Of a stretch of 64,000 bases of DNA, positions 17,003-26,768 are shown one piece after another. The position numbers and the translations under genes are program-made. The notes beneath the pieces are model-generated. The model was not told the origin of the DNA. It made no database searches and worked only from the letters and a program-made list of their open reading frames with translations. This DNA is from Mucilaginibacter sp. OK268 (GTDB lineage Bacteria; Bacteroidota; Bacteroidia; Sphingobacteriales; Sphingobacteriaceae). Numbering within the stretch: the first letter of the stretch is position 1; every line of letters begins with the position of its first letter. The stretch covers positions 186,001-250,000 of the forward strand of contig NZ_FNJV01000001.1 in NCBI RefSeq assembly GCF_900103125.1. The letters are read 5' to 3'.

Positions 17003-17388
17003 TGTATCGTCAACAAAAACTCCCGTAACACCACCGCATGATTTTGCTGTTCGTCATGAACGGAGTAGAGCAGGGTAACCGTGTCGTGCGTTTTTATCAG
17101 TTCAACCAATTCGTTAATCGCTTCTTTTGATTGTCGCAGTTCGGCGATGTAGTTGTGCTGAAATTCGGCCCAGTTTTGCGGGTTGGCGTGATATTGTTTG
17201 CGTAATTCGGTTGATGGGGCTATATCCTTCATCCAGCGGTCAATTTGTGCCCGCTCTTTGGTTACACCTCGGGGCCACAGGCGGTCGACCAGTATGCGCA
17301 GGCCATCTGCTTTGTCGGCTGGGTTGTATATTCGTTTTAAGTTGAGAATCAAGAGACAAGAATCAAGAGTTAAGAAAATATCCAACAA
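16993..17388 (-). CDS. DUF488 family protein
   Basis: The protein matches DUF488 from LKRIYNPADKADG onward, with the hallmark VDRLWPRGVTKE, a middle HANPQNWAEFQ and the LLYSVHDEQQNHA segment. Family function is not established; conserved Arg/His/Asp residues suggest an enzyme. No ATG precedes the domain. The longest frame starts at TTG 17388, while another TTG lies just before LILNLKR. The N-terminal residues and the final HPL are read from intergenic repeats. It is therefore an intact domain with repeat-modified ends; the true start is uncertain and slight degradation is possible. Confidence 0.7.
   Translation of the reverse strand: MLDIFLTLDSCLLILNLKRIYNPADKADGLRILVDRLWPRGVTKERAQIDRWMKDIAPSTELRKQYHANPQNWAEFQHNYIAELRQSKEAINELVELIKTHDTVTLLYSVHDEQQNHAVVLREFLLTIHPL
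17341..17377. repeat. AATCAAGAGTTAAG-type repeat, inverted arm
   Basis: Units such as AGAATCAAGAGTTAAG are the complement of the 14-nt repeat at 17431-17486, so the two arms can form a long stem. This arm overlaps the start of the DUF488 gene. Confidence 0.7.
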
Positions 17389-17430
17389 TTTAGGAAATAT
17401 TTGGTCCTAAATAATCATATTCCTTTTTTC

Positions 17431-17486
17431 TTGATTCTTAACTCTTGATTCTCAACTCTTGATTCTTAACTCTTGATTCTCGACTC
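17431..17486. repeat. 14-nt tandem repeat, four units
   Basis: TTGATTCTTAACTC, TTGATTCTCAACTC, TTGATTCTTAACTC and TTGATTCTCGACTC follow one another with no spacer. Related units are at 19012-19048, 20991-21020 and 21054-21085. Confidence 0.9.
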
Positions 17487-17492
17487 TCTCTC

Positions 17493-18137
17493 TTACTCTT
17501 CCGTTTTATATTCCTCTATCTCCTTCAAAAACTCCATAGCTTTGATGATCTTTTTGCCGCCAAAACTTTCAATAAACTTTTTGACCCATTTACGATGGAT
17601 GTTTTTATAAGTTAAAGTATTGAATAAATAGACAGACAGTATAGTAAATAAAGTAACTACAGTGAGGTTGATAGCCCAGAATGTTGTTCCGCCGTGATCA
17701 ACCAATTGCTGACTATACCAAAATGTGCACCAAAAAGGGGTTTGCAGTATCATTATCCGGCCTACCATATTCAATGAGCTTTGTATAGCGGCCAGTTTTT
17801 CCTGTGTGCGGGTGATGGTATCAGTAATGCTCACACGCTCTAACATAGCCAGATGCCTGATATAAGCGGCCACAGCAAAAATATTGAACAGGGCGATAAG
17901 ACCGATGGAGATAGCGAAATAGATATTGTTTAAACTGTTGATCACCAGAAAGCCCAGAAAAACGGTGAATAATATACCAACCACCACCCCAAAAACCTGG
18001 TTACGGCGAAACGAGTTGATATGGTCCTCGATTTTTTTGGTTTGCATTTCCCTGATGATCTTATAATTGAGCTGCAGGGATCTTTCCAGCTTCTGATCGT
18101 AATCGCGCCACATTTGTTTTATCATTGACTCTTCCAT
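17493..18137 (-). CDS. Membrane protein encoded with an ECF sigma factor, probable anti-sigma factor
   Basis: This 214-residue protein has a charged cytoplasmic N-terminus (about 45 residues), paired hydrophobic helices at about 48-70 and 72-94, a charged loop, and a further pair near 125-170, then a basic/acidic tail. It has no recognised zinc-finger anti-sigma or FecR domain. It starts 4 bases after the stop of the ECF sigma gene, so translation is probably coupled. By position it is the best candidate for the sigma factor's membrane-bound inhibitor, which is an inference from gene order only. Confidence 0.75.
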   Translation of the reverse strand: MEESMIKQMWRDYDQKLERSLQLNYKIIREMQTKKIEDHINSFRRNQVFGVVVGILFTVFLGFLVINSLNNIYFAISIGLIALFNIFAVAAYIRHLAMLERVSITDTITRTQEKLAAIQSSLNMVGRIMILQTPFWCTFWYSQQLVDHGGTTFWAINLTVVTLFTILSVYLFNTLTYKNIHRKWVKKFIESFGGKKIIKAMEFLKEIEEYKTEE

Positions 18138-18141
18138 GGTA

Positions 18142-18645
18142 TTAAGCGTTAATTTTTGAAAATTTTTGTTTTAATTGTTCTTTAATGCGGTTAGTCTTCG
18201 TGCGCACGTTGGCTTCAGACAAACCCAGTATTTCGGCTATTTCTTTGCCGCTCTTTTCCTCCAGGTAAAGCAGCATCAGGGCCCTGTCCAGTTCTTTCAG
18301 CTCGTTAATAAACTGTTGCAGGAGGTTGATTTGTGCTTCTGGCGATGACTCTGTTTCTTCGCTAAAATCCATCATACTTTCAGACAGCGGGACGATCACA
18401 TCGTTCTTCTTTTTTTCTTTCCGATAGGAGCTGATGGCCACATTGAGTGCCACACGGTACATCCAGGTAGATAATTTGCTGCGGTCATCAAAACTGGGAA
18501 AGGCCCGCCAAAGCTGGAAAATGATTTCCTGCACCAGATCCTTTTTATCATTCTCATCCTTCTTGAACGAATTAGCGATCTTGTAAATGATCCCCTTGTT
18601 CTGCTCAATTACGGTTAAGAATATTTCCTCTTGTTGATTACTCAT
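18142..18645 (-). CDS. ECF RNA polymerase sigma factor (first of five in the window)
   Basis: The ATG at 18643-18645 (MSNQQEE) gives 167 residues; an in-frame ATG at 18675 lies at the predicted transcription start and is not used. Region 2 is seen in NDKKDLVQEIIFQLWRAFPSF and STWMYRVALNVAI. Region 4 is near residues 110-160 with the helix-turn-helix SGKEIAEILGLSEANVRTKTNRI. The gene precedes a probable membrane anti-sigma gene. A promoter-like box at 18677-18706 resembles a motif found before three neighbouring genes, which suggests that this sigma factor controls itself and them. Confidence 0.9.
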   Translation of the reverse strand: MSNQQEEIFLTVIEQNKGIIYKIANSFKKDENDKKDLVQEIIFQLWRAFPSFDDRSKLSTWMYRVALNVAISSYRKEKKKNDVIVPLSESMMDFSEETESSPEAQINLLQQFINELKELDRALMLLYLEEKSGKEIAEILGLSEANVRTKTNRIKEQLKQKFSKINA

Positions 18646-18676
18646 CGAATATCTACGCTGATTGTGTTTTACCAAT

Positions 18677-18706
18677 TATTCGCACAGGGGAGCGAAATGT
18701 TACAGT
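18677..18706 (-). promoter_or_regulatory. Candidate autoregulatory ECF promoter
   Basis: On the minus strand ACTGTAAC-N10-CCTGTGCGAATA keeps the GTAA and C-TGT cores and the 10-bp spacing of the AGGGTAAA-N10-CGTGTyATA boxes at 19072, 20326 and 25393. The match is weaker than among those three. Confidence 0.45.
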
Positions 18707-18728
18707 TTTTGCCATTTTTTTCTAAAGA

Positions 18729-18802
18729 GGGTGTCATGCTCCGTCGAAGCATGGTGGGCAGGCCTCTGCGCTCGACCCTTCGACGGGCTCAGGGTGACAC
18801 CC
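18729..18802. repeat. Palindromic repeat, family B copy 1 (reverse orientation)
   Basis: GGGTGTCATGCTCCGTCGAAGC begins a roughly 75-bp element with GTCGAAG/CTTCGAC inverted arms. It is the reverse orientation of the copies at 20208, 22895 and 26688. Confidence 0.85.
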
Positions 18803-18807
18803 ACCCT

Positions 18808-18895
18808 CATGTCATTGCGAGGAGGAACGACGACGCAATCTCATCGCGTTCAATATGCAAGTGAGGAGATTGCCGCACTGCGCTCGCAATGACAT
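18808..18895. repeat. Palindromic repeat, family A copy 3 (diverged)
   Basis: Ends CATGTCATTGCGAGGAGGAA and its diverged complement match family A; the inner arms have drifted. Confidence 0.75.
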
Positions 18896-19071
18896 ACTCT
18901 TTGTAAATAATGGGGTTCATATCTTACGTAATACGTCATTGTATCTTCAAAGCCCATGGATTTTAATTCTCAGGGTAATACCCCTGTATAAATCTATCAG
19001 TTTTTTCCTTGTCTTGATTCTTGACTCTTGGTTCTTGTTTCTCGTTCCCGATTTTTTTCTAAACCAGAGTC

Positions 19072-19098
19072 AGGGTAAAGTTCATGGGGCGTGTCATA
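19072..19098 (+). promoter_or_regulatory. ECF-type promoter box before the 15-residue-repeat protein gene
   Basis: AGGGTAAA-N10-CGTGTCATA ends 30 bp before the ATG. The box is nearly identical to that at 20326-20352, and both hexamer cores and spacing match the box at 25393-25419. Confidence 0.65.
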
Positions 19099-19127
19099 GC
19101 TCCAAATACACGATAAATATTATAGAC

Positions 19128-20192
19128 ATGAACTTTTACTCTTACAATGACAGCCTCTTATTAACTATTTTAAAAATATGGACATTTTTTTTAATAGTAT
19201 TTGTAGGCACCAATGCCCAGGCCCAGGATCACGACCGTGCCCGCACTAACGTTGGTTTGGTTTATCCGCTCAGCAGCAACTGGACAAATGCAGCCCGTGA
19301 TACCAATAGTTTTTCGCTAAACCTGATCGCCGGGGTATCAGCTGCCGAGCGTGGGGTTACCATCGCAGGTTTCTCCAATATTATTCACAATGACGCGCGT
19401 GGTTTCCAGATAGCCGGGTTTTCAAATCACGTAGGGAAAAATGCCGATGGTACCATGGTAGCCGGTTTTCTAAACACATATGGCGGTGGGCACGGAGTGG
19501 CGATTGCCGGTTTTGCCAATATAGCGGCTAACAGCAGCGGTGCCCAGATAGCCGGTTTCCTGAACAAGGGTGGTAATGTTTCAACCCTGCAGCTGGCCGG
19601 CTTTATGAATATAGCCCGCGACAATAAAGGCACGCAGATAGCCGGTTTTATGAACGTAGCTAAAAAATCCAAAGGTACCCAAATAGGCTTTATCAACATT
19701 GCCGATAGCGCCGGTACACAAATAGGTATCATCAACATCGCCAAAAACGGCGAAAAAAGCCTGGGGGCCACTATCGACGAAAATCAAACTGCACTGTTAA
19801 CCTTCCGCTCTGGTGGTAAAGTGTTTTACGGTATTGTGGGTATTGGTTACAATTTCAAGAATAAAAAGCAAAAGTATGCCTACGAGGCCGGTTTTGGCGC
19901 GCATGTGTTAACCATCCAGTCGTTTAGTCTGAATACAGAACTGGTGAACGGTGGACTGGAAAGCTTTAAGGGCGACGAGTATTGGAAATCAACATTCAGG
20001 CTGATGCCATCATTCCGGATAGCGAACAAGGTGGAGATCTTCGCCGGGCCATCTATCAATTATGTGAATACCAACACCGAAGAAGGGCGTAAGATGACCA
20101 CCAAATATATCAACAGCTGGACACGCCATGACGGCCGCGACCTGCACGGATTTTATGTCGGTTATACCGCAGGTGTACAGGTGGCATTGTAG
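19128..20192 (+). CDS. Exported protein with nine 15-residue IAGFxN repeats (LA_2272-like surface repeat)
   Basis: The ATG at 19128 (MNFYSYND) gives 354 residues; longer frames read through upstream repeats. A hydrophobic signal segment ends near QAQ33. Residues 76-205 contain about nine units of roughly 15 residues with pattern GxQIAGFxNxAxxxx; the last two read QIGFIN and QIGIIN. A conserved cap NGEKSLG, DEN and FRSGGK follows, then a beta-strand-rich region with alternating hydrophobics that may form barrel or sheet strands. The repeats resemble Leptospira LA_2272-type surface repeats. It shares the repeats, cap and promoter box with the protein at 23545-25314. Function unknown; probably outer-membrane or cell-surface. 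Confidence 0.8.
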   Translation: MNFYSYNDSLLLTILKIWTFFLIVFVGTNAQAQDHDRARTNVGLVYPLSSNWTNAARDTNSFSLNLIAGVSAAERGVTIAGFSNIIHNDARGFQIAGFSNHVGKNADGTMVAGFLNTYGGGHGVAIAGFANIAANSSGAQIAGFLNKGGNVSTLQLAGFMNIARDNKGTQIAGFMNVAKKSKGTQIGFINIADSAGTQIGIINIAKNGEKSLGATIDENQTALLTFRSGGKVFYGIVGIGYNFKNKKQKYAYEAGFGAHVLTIQSFSLNTELVNGGLESFKGDEYWKSTFRLMPSFRIANKVEIFAGPSINYVNTNTEEGRKMTTKYINSWTRHDGRDLHGFYVGYTAGVQVAL

Positions 20193-20207
20193 ATGTTACA
20201 CAAAGAG

Positions 20208-20287
20208 GGGTGTCACCCTGAGCTCCGTCGAAGGGTAGAGCGCAGAGGCCTGCCCACCATGCTTCGACGGAGCTCAGCATGACACCC
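20208..20287. repeat. Palindromic repeat, family B copy 2
   Basis: GGGTGTCACCCTGAGCTCCG to AGCATGACACCC, 80 bp, has arms GAGCTCCGTCGAAG and CTTCGACGGAGCTC. It may also terminate the upstream gene. Confidence 0.85.
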
Positions 20288-20325
20288 TGTTTTTAGTATA
20301 AAACAAATTTTTTCAAAACACAGTC

Positions 20326-20352
20326 AGGGTAAAGTTTACCGGGCGTGTCATA
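20326..20352 (+). promoter_or_regulatory. ECF-type promoter box before the outer-membrane beta-barrel gene
   Basis: AGGGTAAA-N10-CGTGTCATACTA is identical in both cores and spacing to the box at 19072. Similarity extends beyond the cores (CAGTCAGGGTAAAGTT). Confidence 0.65.
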
Positions 20353-20407
20353 CTACCAAATAACAGATAATAATTCAATAAAAATGATCACAAACAAAAA
20401 CCAAAAA

Positions 20408-20983
20408 ATGAAAGCAGTTAAATTATTTGCAACCGCAGCTATCCTGGTTACTTTAGGGATAGGTTCGGCAAAAGCACAGTCGTCGCCAGATCTTGAATTT
20501 GGTATCAAGGCAGGTGTTAACTTTTCTACCTTAAAAACGGGCCTGAGTGCTATTAATGATAAATCGGGGAAAATAGGTTTTAACGCCGGTATATTTGCCA
20601 GGGCCGGACAAACCTTGTACTTTCAACCGGAGCTAAACTATGTAACCTTCAGCGATAAATACCGTTTTAATTCAAACTCGTACGAAGCTAAGTTCAGGCA
20701 ATTGAACGTACCTTTAATGGTAGGCTACAAGATTGTGAATACTGCCGATCTGAATTTCAGGGTATCAGCCGGTCCGGATCTGTATTATAACCTTAAAACA
20801 CCAATTGCTCCGGAAGGCTTTAAATACAAAAAAGTTAGCGCCGGGGGTGTTCTTGATGCAGGTGTTGATATAGGCAGCTTAACTTTTGACGCCCGCTACA
20901 GTTTAGGTTTAAGCAAGGTGAATAAGGAGCTTGGCCAAAAGGCCAATATCTTTAGCCTGGGAGTTGGCTTTAAATTTCAATAA
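20408..20983 (+). CDS. Outer-membrane beta-barrel protein (PorT/porin-family type)
   Basis: The ATG at 20408 (MKAVKLFATAAI) gives 191 residues with a clear signal peptide ending KAQ; an ATG at 20384 would add eight polar residues. The mature part has the alternating strand pattern of small Bacteroidota barrels, beginning FGIKAGVNFSTL and ending IFSLGVGFKFQ with a terminal aromatic-containing strand. It resembles outer_membrane_beta-barrel/PorT-like domains of eight strands. It lies between the repeat-protein gene and the second ECF sigma gene, and shares a promoter box with the former. Substrate or role unknown. Confidence 0.85.
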   Translation: MKAVKLFATAAILVTLGIGSAKAQSSPDLEFGIKAGVNFSTLKTGLSAINDKSGKIGFNAGIFARAGQTLYFQPELNYVTFSDKYRFNSNSYEAKFRQLNVPLMVGYKIVNTADLNFRVSAGPDLYYNLKTPIAPEGFKYKKVSAGGVLDAGVDIGSLTFDARYSLGLSKVNKELGQKANIFSLGVGFKFQ

Positions 20984-20990
20984 CATAATT

Positions 20991-21085
20991 AGAGTCAGGA
21001 GTTAAGAATCAAGAGTCAGGATAAGCCAAAAGCAATTTGCTATTATTGTTTATCTTGACTCTTGATTCTTGACTCTTGGTTCTTG
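20991..21085. repeat. Inverted AATCAAGAGTC repeat with 33-nt loop
   Basis: Left arm 20991-21020 (AGAGTCAGGAGTTAAGAATC onward) pairs with right arm 21054-21085 (TCTTGACTCTTGATTCTTGA onward). The units are the same 14-nt type seen at 17431. It is positioned to act as a terminator between the barrel gene and the sigma gene. Confidence 0.75.
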
Positions 21086-21097
21086 ATAAATACCATA

Positions 21098-21673
21098 ATG
21101 GATAATAAGGAGATGACAGCCGATCTGGTCAACGAAAATGAGGCCGTTTTTGAGCAGCTGTTCAAAAAACATTTTAGGGAACTCCATGCATATTCTTTCT
21201 CGTTATTGAAGGACTGGGATGTGGCGGAAGAGATTGTGCAATCGCTGTTCCTTAAACTCTGGGAAAAAAACGACTGGTCGCATATACAAACATCCATTAA
21301 ATCGTACCTGTACAAATCGGTATACCATGAGAGTCTGAACTATATCAGGCGACAGAAAGTTCAATTAAAATATCAAACCTCAACAGCGTATGCCATGAAG
21401 AACGATACAGATGATGCGGCAGGCAAACTAAAAATGGGCGAACTGGAGCAGCATTTAAACAGAGCCCTGGGTAAACTGCCCGAAAAATGCCGGGCCATAT
21501 TTCAGCTGAGCCGGTTCCAGGAATTAAAATACCAGGAAATAGCCACCCAGTTAGATATCTCTATAAAAACTGTAGAAACCCACATGGGCAAAGCGCTGCG
21601 GATATTAAGAAAAGAAATGAAAGAATTTTTACCACTTATTGCATTAATGTTATTTAATATGTTTAGATCATGA
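21098..21673 (+). CDS. ECF RNA polymerase sigma factor (second), FecI-like
   Basis: The ATG at 21098 (MDNKEMTAD) gives 191 residues; upstream in-frame codons belong to a repeat. Region 2 is seen in WDVAEEIVQSLFLKLWEK and SYLYKSVYHESLNYIRR. Region 4 has LPEKCRAIFQLSRFQELKYQEIATQLDISIKTVE in pieces, typical of Bacteroidota FecI-like sigma factors. The stop overlaps the start of the FecR gene by ATGA, so the two are translationally coupled. No SusC or TonB receptor follows on this strand, which is unusual for such a pair. Confidence 0.93.
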   Translation: MDNKEMTADLVNENEAVFEQLFKKHFRELHAYSFSLLKDWDVAEEIVQSLFLKLWEKNDWSHIQTSIKSYLYKSVYHESLNYIRRQKVQLKYQTSTAYAMKNDTDDAAGKLKMGELEQHLNRALGKLPEKCRAIFQLSRFQELKYQEIATQLDISIKTVETHMGKALRILRKEMKEFLPLIALMLFNMFRS

Positions 21674-22656
21674 AACAGGATATGAGCGAAGATATACTGA
21701 TCAAATATATTTTGGGAGAGGCAAGCACCCATGAAGGGCAGGAAATTGAGACCTGGAAGAGCGCTAATCACGCTAATGCCAAAAAATTTGAGGAGGTAAA
21801 AATTATCCTGGAAACCGGTAAGCAGCTGGCAGAGGTTAGTCCGCTGAGTGAGGCCGAGGCCTGGGAAAAATTTAAGGAAAAAAGAGCGACCGCCAGACAG
21901 GAGCCCGCCAAAGTAGTTTCGATAAACAGGAGTACTGACACTAACTGGCTGCGCATAGCCGCGGCCGCGATATTGGTAATAGGCGGCGGATGGATAGGTT
22001 ATTACCTGTACCAGCAAAACGCCGCTACCCAGGTGGTGAACATTCAGGCCAATAACCAGGTGAGGGTTGATACCTTGCCCGATGGCTCGGTGGTGCATTT
22101 GAACAAAAACTCGGGTATCAGCTATGTGGGTACTTTTAAATCAAAACGTGAGATTACCCTTGCCGGCGAGGCATTTTTTGATGTGAAGCACAATGAGGCA
22201 GCCCCCTTTACCGTGCACGTGAATGATGTTACCATAAAAGATATAGGTACGGCCTTTAACGTAAAAAGCAAGCAGCGCAACACCGAGATTATTGTAGAGA
22301 GCGGAATTGTACAGGTAAGCCGGAGCAATAACGCGGTAAGATTAAGCCGAAACGAAATGGTAAGCATCAATTCCGATGATAAACAGCTGAAGGTTGAAAA
22401 AAGCACCGACGATCTGTATGGCTACTATAGAGAACCCGTATTTAACGCCGTTCATGTACCACTATCGCGTTTGGTTGAGGTATTGAACGAAGCTTACAGC
22501 GTGAATATCAGAATTGAGAATACGGCTCTGCGTAATATCCCTATCACTATCCCCATCAAATGGACCGATCCGTTGAGCAACGTATTGGAGGCTATAAAAG
22601 GCACAACCCCTGCTATGAATATCATAGAAGTAGGAAATAATGTCATTATCAGATAA
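21670..22656 (+). CDS. FecR-family anti-sigma factor
   Basis: This 328-residue protein has a cytoplasmic sigma-binding N-terminus (about 1-90), one membrane helix (about 96-114, LRIAAAAILVIGGGWIGYYL), a periplasmic FecR domain (RVDTLPDGSVVHLNKNSG, LAGEAFFDV) and a C-terminal DUF4974/STN-like domain (LSRLVEVLNEAYSVNIRI). It should hold the sigma factor encoded just upstream until a periplasmic signal arrives from an outer-membrane transducer. The nearest protein carrying an STN domain is the convergent repeat protein at 23545-25314. A terminator follows directly. Confidence 0.93.
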   Translation: MKQDMSEDILIKYILGEASTHEGQEIETWKSANHANAKKFEEVKIILETGKQLAEVSPLSEAEAWEKFKEKRATARQEPAKVVSINRSTDTNWLRIAAAAILVIGGGWIGYYLYQQNAATQVVNIQANNQVRVDTLPDGSVVHLNKNSGISYVGTFKSKREITLAGEAFFDVKHNEAAPFTVHVNDVTIKDIGTAFNVKSKQRNTEIIVESGIVQVSRSNNAVRLSRNEMVSINSDDKQLKVEKSTDDLYGYYREPVFNAVHVPLSRLVEVLNEAYSVNIRIENTALRNIPITIPIKWTDPLSNVLEAIKGTTPAMNIIEVGNNVIIR

Positions 22657-22657
22657 T

Positions 22658-22695
22658 AAAAGAGGCTGTATCATCAATCATGACCGGCCTCTTTT
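22658..22695 (+). terminator. Terminator after FecR
   Basis: AAAAGAGGC pairs with GCCTCTTTT across a 20-nt loop and ends in a T-rich stretch. Confidence 0.7.
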
Positions 22696-22894
22696 TCTTT
22701 GATCTATTCAGATATCCGGTGTTATAAATTGGGTTTACATGGTTTACACTTTTTATGGTTTGCATTATTTTAACTAATTGTAAAGCAAAGTGTTATGTAT
22801 TTTTTTAATCATTTAATGGGTTTACAGTGTAAACCCAACTTTATACTTCGTCGGTTCAAGTGGTCACGCCTGAATAGACTGAAAATATAAAAAA

Positions 22895-22971
22895 GGGTGT
22901 CACCCTGAGCCCCGTCGAAGGGTAGAGCGCAGAGACCTGCCCACTATGCTTCGACGGGTAGCATGACAGCC
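22895..22971. repeat. Palindromic repeat, family B copy 3
   Basis: GGGTGTCACCCTGAGCCCCG to GCATGACAGCC is a slightly diverged copy. Confidence 0.8.
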
Positions 22972-22979
22972 GACTAAAA

Positions 22980-23544
22980 AAGCCAAAGCCCTGTGCGATT
23001 CCTTCCCTCGGGAAGGAGAGGAAGGAGTTTATGAAATAAGCTAATCATCGCGCGTAGAAACCCCTCCGCCGGTTCAAGCGTCCACGCTTGAACCCATACT
23101 TAAGTAAGCGTGGACGCTTACCTAAAATAATATCCAGGCGTGGACACCTGGATTGGCAAGACGCATAGTCGACTCACCCGGTCTACGCTTCGCTGGACCA
23201 AAGAGGGTTGAGAAAAAAGAAATGAAAATCCCCTCTATGCGCGAAGCGTAGAGAGGAGTGACGAGCGCAACGACGTCGGTGTATGTTTTTATATTATAAG
23301 TGTTCGGAAGGTCGTTGGTTCGGCTAAAGCCAGCAAATGATTCCATTATCCGTCCCATAAATGGGACGGCAATGAATAGAAGACGAAGTGATTTACCTTT
23401 CATTGCCGTTGGTTTTAACCAACGGATTTCAGCATGATCAACTACTGGCTTTAGCCCAAAAAACGGTCAATTTGATTGATGCCGTAGCCTCTTTTACCCC
23501 TATTCTTTTAACCGTAGAGACGCATCACATGCGTCTCTTTTTTA
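22980..23544. repeat. Nest of several different palindromic repeats, no gene
   Basis: The stretch holds GGTTCAAGCGTCCACGCTTG palindrome (23071-23094), GCGTCCAC/GTGGACGC units to about 23155, an inverted TCTACGCTTCGC/GCGAAGCGTAGA pair (23182-23250), a CCGTCCCATAAATGGGACGG palindrome (23350-23369), CATTGCCGTTGG-TTTTAACCAACGG (23400-23425) and AGAGACGCATCACATGCGTCTCT (23517-23539). The last may terminate the minus-strand gene. Short open frames here are repeat artefacts. Confidence 0.75.
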
Positions 23545-25314
23545 TTACCAAACAAACTGTAAGCCGCCGGTTACACCGATACTTAAAGTAGTGATGTTAT
23601 TATCTGTGCCGATATGTTTGCTCAGTTCCCATCCGTGTATTTGGGCATCGTCATTTGGGTCGGAGCCGGTGATATCGAAAGTTGGGCCAGCAAATAAACG
23701 TAGCAGCTTGTTCAGCTTATAGCCCGGTAATAGTTTAAAGGATTGGGTTTGATAAAATTTCTTTTTGGTATCAGTAATCAATTCGACCACATACTCACCG
23801 TTTAAGGAGAATTTGGAATGGTTGATGATATGCGCGCCAAAACCCAGGTCGAGCGCGTATTTGGACCACGCATCGCCAAATTTATAGCCAGCACCTATCA
23901 GGCCATACATGACCCTGCCGCCCGAGCGGAAATCAAGATGGGTGAACAGGTTTTCATCCGTACTGATGGCCAGGCTTTTTTCGCCGTTTTTGATAAAGTT
24001 GATGATGCCGATGGGATAGTCGCTGCTATCGGCTACGTTAAATAAAAACCCAAGCTGAAAGCCCTTTACCTTTTTTGCTACGTTGAAAAGACTTGCCATT
24101 TGTGAGCCCGTTTGCCCGGTCGACCAGTTGAAAAGCCCGGCAAACTGCACACCACTTGCTTGCTTACCGGTATTGAACAAGCCCGCTACCTGTACACCAC
24201 CGGTAAAATTCTTTACGTTATTAAACAGCCCTGCCATTTGAAAGCCCTTTGCCTCCTGATCCAGGTTGGCTATACCGGCCACCTGCGCGCCTTTAAAATT
24301 ATTGGTTCTGTTGCCTATACCGGCCACCTGCATGCCGCTTGAGTTGTTGAGCACATTGTTGTAAATCCCGGCTATTTCAAAACCGCTTAAGCTGCCGCCT
24401 ACCACGTTAAATATCCCGGCCATCTGAAAACCGTTCACATCTTTGCGATTGATATTAAATATACCGGCTGCTTCAACCCCGTTAATACCGGCAGTATAGC
24501 CGCCCAGGAGATTATAGGAAACTTTGTCGATGATCTGGCTGTTATACATGCCATGTGTACTTAGGCCAGGTACCAGCGAAACCTGGTAAGGGCTTGTGGC
24601 AAAAAAGTTGCCCAGGTTCATGCCTTGCACCAGTTGTTTTGAGCTGATAAAGAACCGCGCAAAACGACTATGCTCCACACCGTTTCCCGAACCTTCGTCG
24701 GGGTAATATTTATAATTTTGGTTATTATGTTTAGAATCTACGTTAACTACCGGCAATATATAAAGGGCGGTGTCGCGGTATTCCTCCTTGCTTACACTTA
24801 AGGAGAGCGGGCCACCCGGGTTTTTAAGCCGGAGTTCAAAATAGCCTCTGTCGTTAGTTAAGGTTGCTACCAGTTGATTCTTTTCATAAACGCTGGCCTG
24901 TGGTATCCCTTTTTGCCCCGAAACATCATTTATATAACCTTTAACTATCGCCAGCTCCTTATCAACTTCGGCGGTGATATATAGTTTACCGGGCGCATGC
25001 CTTAACACAATGTATCCGGGTACTTCTTTAAACTCGTAGCTATCGCCCAGTAATTTATCCAGCAGGCTAAAAAGTGTTCCGCGGTAGCCCGCAACAGATA
25101 CCATGCTATCGGCCGGGATGGTTTTGTTGTTGTAGGCAAAATAAAAATTGCCTTTACTGGCAATTTTATCCAGAACGCTGCCCATACGCTGCTGCTTGAT
25201 CTCACCTATCGAGATCTCTTTCATCAGGTTGTTTTGCGCATAAAGTTGGGTGCAAAAAAGCGCGGGTATAAAAAGCGCCAGGCCGCGGGTGATTAGTTTT
25301 TGGTTAATGGTCAT
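23545..25314 (-). CDS. STN + carboxypeptidase-like domain protein with eleven 15-residue surface repeats
   Basis: The ATG at 25312-25314 (MTINQKLITRG) gives 589 residues and a clear signal peptide ending LYAQ; ATGs at 25356 and 25383 are possible but lie very near the predicted transcription start. After the signal come an STN-like secretin/TonB short domain (ISIGEIKQQRMGSVLDKIAS to about residue 100), a CarboxypepD_reg-like beta-sandwich (VKGYINDVSGQKGIPQASVY, about 125-205), then eleven 15-16 residue units of type GxQVAGLFNxxxxxx (about 265-430). The cap NGEKSLAISTDEN...FRSGGR and a strand-rich C-terminus match the protein at 19128. No TonB plug or receptor barrel is present. The architecture suggests an envelope sensor able to speak to FecR (inference). 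Confidence 0.8.
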   Translation of the reverse strand: MTINQKLITRGLALFIPALFCTQLYAQNNLMKEISIGEIKQQRMGSVLDKIASKGNFYFAYNNKTIPADSMVSVAGYRGTLFSLLDKLLGDSYEFKEVPGYIVLRHAPGKLYITAEVDKELAIVKGYINDVSGQKGIPQASVYEKNQLVATLTNDRGYFELRLKNPGGPLSLSVSKEEYRDTALYILPVVNVDSKHNNQNYKYYPDEGSGNGVEHSRFARFFISSKQLVQGMNLGNFFATSPYQVSLVPGLSTHGMYNSQIIDKVSYNLLGGYTAGINGVEAAGIFNINRKDVNGFQMAGIFNVVGGSLSGFEIAGIYNNVLNNSSGMQVAGIGNRTNNFKGAQVAGIANLDQEAKGFQMAGLFNNVKNFTGGVQVAGLFNTGKQASGVQFAGLFNWSTGQTGSQMASLFNVAKKVKGFQLGFLFNVADSSDYPIGIINFIKNGEKSLAISTDENLFTHLDFRSGGRVMYGLIGAGYKFGDAWSKYALDLGFGAHIINHSKFSLNGEYVVELITDTKKKFYQTQSFKLLPGYKLNKLLRLFAGPTFDITGSDPNDDAQIHGWELSKHIGTDNNITTLSIGVTGGLQFVW

Positions 25315-25392
25315 TAATTTATAGATGCTTTGTGTGTTATCATACACCTGTTTCATGAGCCGGGGTAGGGCAACATAAAGCATGGCGCATAG

Positions 25393-25419
25393 TATAACAC
25401 GTTCAAGGGTTTTTACCCT
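25393..25419 (-). promoter_or_regulatory. ECF-type promoter box before the STN-repeat protein gene
   Basis: On the minus strand AGGGTAAA-N10-CGTGTTATACTA has the same cores and spacing as the boxes at 19072 and 20326. It places transcription start near 25386, favouring the ATG at 25314. Confidence 0.65.
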
Positions 25420-26687: not shown

Positions 26688-26768
26688 GGGCTGTCACCCT
26701 GAGCTCCGTCGAAGGGGCGAGCGTAGAGGCCTGCCCACCATGCTTCGACGGAGCTCAGCATGACACCC
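26688..26768. repeat. Palindromic repeat, family B copy 4, inside the TetR leader
   Basis: GGGCTGTCACCCTGAGCTCC to CATGACACCC is nearly identical to the copy at 20208. It lies between the predicted promoter and the TetR start codon. Confidence 0.85.

Follow-up and report, generated by a model that had tools for sequence, protein, structure and literature searches.

The two-block boxes that stand upstream of three envelope-protein genes in Mucilaginibacter sp. OK268 are probably promoters read by SIG2, a FecI-type ECF sigma factor encoded in the same cassette, and together with SIG2 and its FecR-like anti-sigma factor they would make up a cell-surface signaling regulon of the FecI/FecR type. 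Comparison with related genomes points to the SIG2-FecR-STN genes as the linked controller of the box, rather than to SIG1, a neighboring sigma factor. The proposed sensor, STNrep, looks like a combination of an STN domain, a carboxypeptidase-regulatory-like domain, LA_2272-type repeats (a name presumably taken from a Leptospira gene), and a predicted 8-stranded barrel, and not like a TonB transporter.

A shared box precedes three envelope-protein genes

The window, meaning the whole 64,000-nt stretch of DNA analyzed, contains a cassette with the gene order LArep-BARREL-SIG2-fecR followed by the convergent STNrep, as established by synteny in Mucilaginibacter. LArep (19128–20192, plus strand) encodes a 354-aa LA_2272-type repeat protein (NCBIfam LA_2272_repeat, E = 4e-6); its start at ATG 19128 was inferred from the orthologues, and the longest ORF starts at 18855. 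BARREL (20384–20983, plus strand) encodes a small outer-membrane beta-barrel protein of 199 aa (Pfam OMP_b-brl_2, E = 2e-19), and both genes are predicted targets of the system. SIG2 (21098–21673, plus strand), the proposed reader of the box, matches TIGR02985 (E = 3e-49) and overlaps the adjacent fecR gene (21670–22656, plus strand). The product of the latter is a FecR-like anti-sigma factor (Pfam FecR, 1.5e-15; FecR_C, 1.9e-7) with, by hydropathy, a single hydrophobic transmembrane segment at about residue 96. STNrep (23545–25314, minus strand; open frame to 25383) is the proposed outer-membrane sensor as well as a predicted target, and many of its orthologues start at the methionine corresponding to residue 24 in the long ORF (25314).

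The box has the form AGGGTAAA-N10-CGTGTYATA and occurs with 0 mismatches at 19072–19098 (box 1, plus strand), 20326–20352 (box 2, plus strand), and 25393–25419 (box 3, minus strand), the predicted promoters of LArep, BARREL, and STNrep, respectively. These three sites had been reported in a preliminary description of the locus, and all were recovered in place. Their position suits promoters: box 1 ends 29 nt upstream of ATG 19128, likely the true LArep start, box 2 ends 31 nt upstream of ATG 20384, and box 3 lies ~78 nt before STNrep if translation starts at Met24, close to the 57–77 nt seen in the orthologues. Some flanking letters are common to boxes 1 and 2. When up to 3 mismatches were allowed, the window gave 4 matches compared with 0.35 expected from shuffles; a scan for the sigma-70 consensus yielded nothing useful. 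The 7.16-Mb genome (19 contigs) contains exactly three copies of the core GTAAA-N10-CGTGTYATA, all in this cassette and within 6.4 kb, whereas base composition predicts 0.2 occurrences per genome for the core and 0.003 for the full AGGGTAAA form. Matches at 2 mismatches are pure background (118 genome-wide compared with 167 for the backwards pattern).

Conservation of the box within and outside Mucilaginibacter

Among 150 genomes of the genus, 15 contained GGTAAA-N10-CGTGTYATA. The intergenic, promoter-placed hits precede orthologues of LArep, BARREL, or STNrep, or the gene for a 778-aa TonB receptor; the remaining hits are mostly within, or far from the starts of, unrelated genes. The relaxed pattern TMAGGGTAAR-N11-GTGTYAT found 38 sites in 20 genomes compared with a handful for its backwards control. 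Scoring with a box matrix placed the box before LArep in 20/20 cassettes that have the gene, before STNrep in 18/23, before BARREL in 9/17 (8/17 are without it), before the TonB receptor in 7/7, clearly before SIG2 in 3/23, and before fecR in 0/23, but because Mucilaginibacter sites were used to train the matrix, these within-genus counts are partly circular and the fair test lies outside the genus. Information per column shows that only the two blocks are conserved, while spacer and flanks diverge.

A diverged form of the box is present in Pedobacter and Chitinophaga, and outside the genus it has drifted to GTAGGGGTAAA-N10-nGTTGTCnYA. Twenty-three of 25 LArep relatives from other genera scored above 0 against a background median of about −18 (Mann-Whitney p = 1e-14 for the relatives versus background), and these 23 boxes end 15–28 nt before the start of the gene. 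The 24th relative has a recognizable but low-scoring box. Five of the 25 exceeded the 99th percentile of the background, compared with at most one when the matrix columns were shuffled. Random occurrence throughout the genome and lack of conservation in related species had been named beforehand as outcomes that would count against a shared promoter; neither was found, and these computational tests leave the shared-promoter reading supported. The sequence comparisons thus bear out the earlier proposal that one ECF-type promoter motif is common to three envelope-protein genes and probably defines a small local regulon.

In several congeners, members of the 778-aa TonB receptor family have the box (for example, L081:9684-12020 and L082:7740-10076), and the N terminus of the receptor is a carboxypeptidase-regulatory-like segment, not an STN domain. 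In one genome (G014), the box precedes a receptor of this family on a contig away from the cassette (C2:50334, L173). Another genome (G030) has two extra box sites, one before lpxD (C3) and one before a desaturase gene (C4).

Candidate readers of the box

SIG2 is present in 19/20 genomes that have the box, and the 20th is a fragmentary genome in which the box precedes an STN gene. Over the 150 genomes, 19 have both, 1 has the box alone, 3 have SIG2 alone, and 127 have neither (Fisher p = 5e-20, uncorrected for relatedness). In addition, a SIG2-type sigma gene and a FecR gene adjoin 78/80 STNrep relatives from many Bacteroidota genera, with both exceptions located at contig ends. Together, the co-occurrence and the gene linkage argue for SIG2-FecR-STN as the controller of the box.

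The preliminary description had named as best candidates for this role SIG1 (18142–18645, minus strand) and the membrane protein encoded beside it (17493–18137, minus strand), which would control the boxes as a local ECF regulon. SIG1 does divergently adjoin LArep in four species, and its own upstream box (18674–18705, minus strand) resembles the cassette box in length and position, but we consider this reading very unlikely. SIG1 is absent from the cassette in most species: with its membrane partner it flanks 4/23 Mucilaginibacter cassettes (G000, G030, G034, and G066), it is located elsewhere in two genomes (G046 and G128), and in four more (G054, G064, G099, and G104) it is missing at the threshold of E ≤ 1e-40. 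At this threshold it is absent from 12/20 genomes with the box, all of which retain the box (8 of the 150 have both, 12 the box alone, 12 SIG1 alone, and 118 neither), and it adds no association inside SIG2-positive genomes (Fisher p = 0.52). In 13 genomes with SIG1 and without SIG2, the box was found only in a fragmentary one (G069), before an STN gene. The co-occurrence tests ignore relatedness, but the decoupling of the box from SIG1 does not depend on it. The cassette box precedes 0/15 SIG1 orthologues; these instead conserve a box of their own, TGTRAYATTT...GCGAATAATT, that differs in both blocks. A "looser version" of the cassette box reported before SIG1 is indeed in the sequence, but the orthologues show that a different box is conserved there. 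A SIG1 regulon was therefore rejected, as the box is neither conserved together with SIG1 nor present before it, and by this distribution SIG1 is a lineage-specific neighbor with its own box. The case shows that adjacency alone can implicate the wrong sigma factor. SIG1 and its 3–4-helix partner form a separate conserved pair; the partner adjoins SIG1 wherever present, has no Pfam match, and may be an anti-sigma factor from a family not yet described.

Other explanations leave SIG1 aside. Since the evidence is comparative sequence, the two conserved blocks, which keep a fixed distance to the start, might be the operator of a DNA-binding regulator acting at these promoters, but the fixed 10-bp spacing and the short distance to the start favor a sigma promoter, the box is strictly linked to a sigma factor and its anti-sigma factor, the cassette contains no further conserved regulator, and diverged triads have diverged boxes with unchanged spacing; we regard an operator as unlikely. 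It is also rather improbable that another FecI-type sigma factor of the genome reads the boxes, additionally or in the main. ECF sigma genes number in the dozens in such genomes (74–79 first-look candidates), and this one has related TAGGGGTAA...GTTGT boxes at other places, but the exact box is confined to this cassette and tracks SIG2 across species. The least credible explanation is that the upstream likeness is a functionless relic of gene duplication. LArep is paralogous to the C-terminal half of STNrep (39%), and boxes 1 and 2 share flanking letters as noted above, but duplication without function was rejected because conservation is limited to the two blocks, the genes downstream are in part unrelated (barrel, TonB receptor, and SIG2), and the G014 site is distant from the cassette.

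The same genome carries a paralogous sigma-FecR-STN triad on another contig (C5:182006-186163; L282:6006-10163), led by a 226-aa gene. The box before this gene, GTAGGGGTAAA-N10-TGTTGTAATA, has the same spacing, and the relatives of the triad have it likewise; a loose genome pattern for this paralogous box gave a count not above its backwards control. Boxes resembling TAGGGGTAA...GTTGT are found just before unrelated genes elsewhere in the genome (C15:217128, L291; C11:67534, L306; C5:174267, L294; C15:322848, L292; and C18:82387, L293), and among the genes behind them, two encode proteins of similar type (276 aa and 344 aa), one encodes an epimerase-like protein, and another is lpxD. Taken as a whole, the genome-wide count of such boxes does not exceed the backwards control; they are possible promoters of other ECF sigma factors.

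Predicted architecture of STNrep

A carboxypeptidase-regulatory-like domain was recognized in 75/75 STNrep sequences and STN (Pfam PF07660) in 43/75; the Pfam STN model matches relatives only, with no match on STNrep of the window itself. A model of the full protein had left the STN part at low confidence, and the N terminus was refolded with 75 sequences. In the resulting model of residues 1–235, pLDDT is above 90 over most of residues 50–210, the elements follow the beta-alpha-beta order of STN, and the fold matches secretin-type domains and the PupA signaling domain (TM 0.67 over the target, rmsd 2.8, 76 columns). At the other end, residues 466–612, a predicted barrel of about 147 residues, match the 8-stranded outer-membrane barrels of OprF (Z 15.7, rmsd 2.5, 121 residues) and OmpA (Z 13.9, rmsd 2.9, 117 residues); for the repeats, weaker matches to beta-helical tailspikes were obtained (Z 9–11). 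All of these matches rest on predicted models, and the Foldseek E-values are weak: nothing matched the full STNrep model at E ≤ 0.001. A domain search of STNrep at E values up to 10 detected neither a TonB receptor domain nor a plug.

Proposed mechanism and comparison with known systems

In the mechanism we propose, including its direction of regulation, RNA polymerase with SIG2 would read the GGGTAAA block as a −35-like element and the GTGTYATA block as a −10-like element. The C-terminal barrel would anchor STNrep in the outer membrane, with the STN domain exposed in the periplasm, and a putative surface or envelope signal would alter the contact between STN and FecR. FecR might then be inactivated or cut, and the SIG2 so freed would transcribe LArep, BARREL, and STNrep itself.

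These components resemble those of FecI-FecR-FecA systems (E. coli Fec; Pseudomonas Fox and Pup; PMC9249621, PMC11637429) in that a FecI-type ECF sigma factor lies beside a FecR-like anti-sigma factor, which has a single transmembrane segment as well as a FecR_C domain, and in that the outer-membrane partner has an N-terminal STN-type signaling domain, as judged from Pfam matches in relatives and the predicted model. The conserved box at promoter distance before the sensor and target genes is a candidate SIG2-dependent promoter. Unlike in those systems, the partner is not a TonB-dependent receptor with a plug and a large barrel: in STNrep, LA_2272-type repeats and a predicted 8-stranded barrel take their place, and among the predicted targets are a repeat protein and a small barrel, not only a transporter. 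In the Dma anti-sigma factors of Bacteroides, the anti-sigma domain, helix, tether, and barrel are joined in one polypeptide (PMC13088901). As with Dma, a Bacteroidota ECF sigma factor would here be controlled through an outer-membrane beta-barrel, but FecR (21670–22656) and STNrep (23545–25314) are encoded by separate genes on opposite strands, the anti-sigma factor and barrel would be joined through the STN domain, and the sigma factor belongs to the TIGR02985/FecI type. LArep fits the repeat model of the LA_2272 family of surface repeat-containing proteins (NCBIfam NF047436); what differs from that family is that here an STN domain is attached to the repeats, with sigma and anti-sigma genes next door. 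In Leptospira, no STN-bearing receptor is known for a FecR-like/ECF pair (PMC12155086). The literature searched, in which few subscription journals were covered, held no description of a sigma-FecR-STN triad of this kind, so its novelty is provisional, and it yielded nothing on a regulatory role for LA_2272 repeat proteins and nothing relevant on such promoter boxes.

To our knowledge, nearly all descriptions of FecI/FecR signaling concern TonB-dependent transporters that sense their own imports. All parts of the system are of known kinds, in an arrangement that would work in a FecI/FecR-like way, and what is provisionally new is a sensor without the transporter, a defining feature of the systems described. 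We lean slightly toward a broader interpretation, in which this is a widespread Bacteroidota signaling class whose STN sensor is a repeat-plus-small-barrel surface protein rather than a nutrient transporter and responds to the condition of the outer membrane or to extracellular contact, and in which the sigma factor and its box have diverged together into several lineages, of which this genome has two. A conserved triad with a transporter-free sensor would separate sensing from import; with it, a function would be suggested for LA_2272-type repeat proteins, and a testable promoter consensus would be available for FecI-type sigma factors of Bacteroidota.

Hairpin and repeated elements in and around the cassette

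The earlier statement that the second sigma gene has no box is true of this genome, where the best match upstream of SIG2 scores 7.6 bits compared with 34–40 for real boxes, but it is misleading, because the three cassettes with a box directly before SIG2 all belong to relatives. Between BARREL and SIG2 is a hairpin (20988–21087, plus strand; −54.5 kcal/mol, z −10), a possible attenuator, and a stem-loop was found at this position in 17/17 cassettes folded. It suggests a terminator or attenuator, perhaps with a separate SIG2 promoter. Because SIG2 has no clear box here and a strong hairpin follows BARREL, autoregulation of SIG2 is only a candidate in this genome.

The hairpin of this genome is a 40-bp-scale stem built from a repeated element, CTTGATTCTTGACTCTTG, which has 13 copies within 3 mismatches in the window compared with 0.03 expected. 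Copies lie at 17350–17489, 19013–19037, and 20996–21085, and the large stem upstream of SIG2 is formed by one pair of them. Another repeat, located between genes, has TTCGACGGAGCTCAGSRTGACA in inverted pairs (5 matches in the window compared with 0 expected); it occurs at 20211–20284, 22898–22919, and 26692–26765 and is probably a REP- or MITE-like element.
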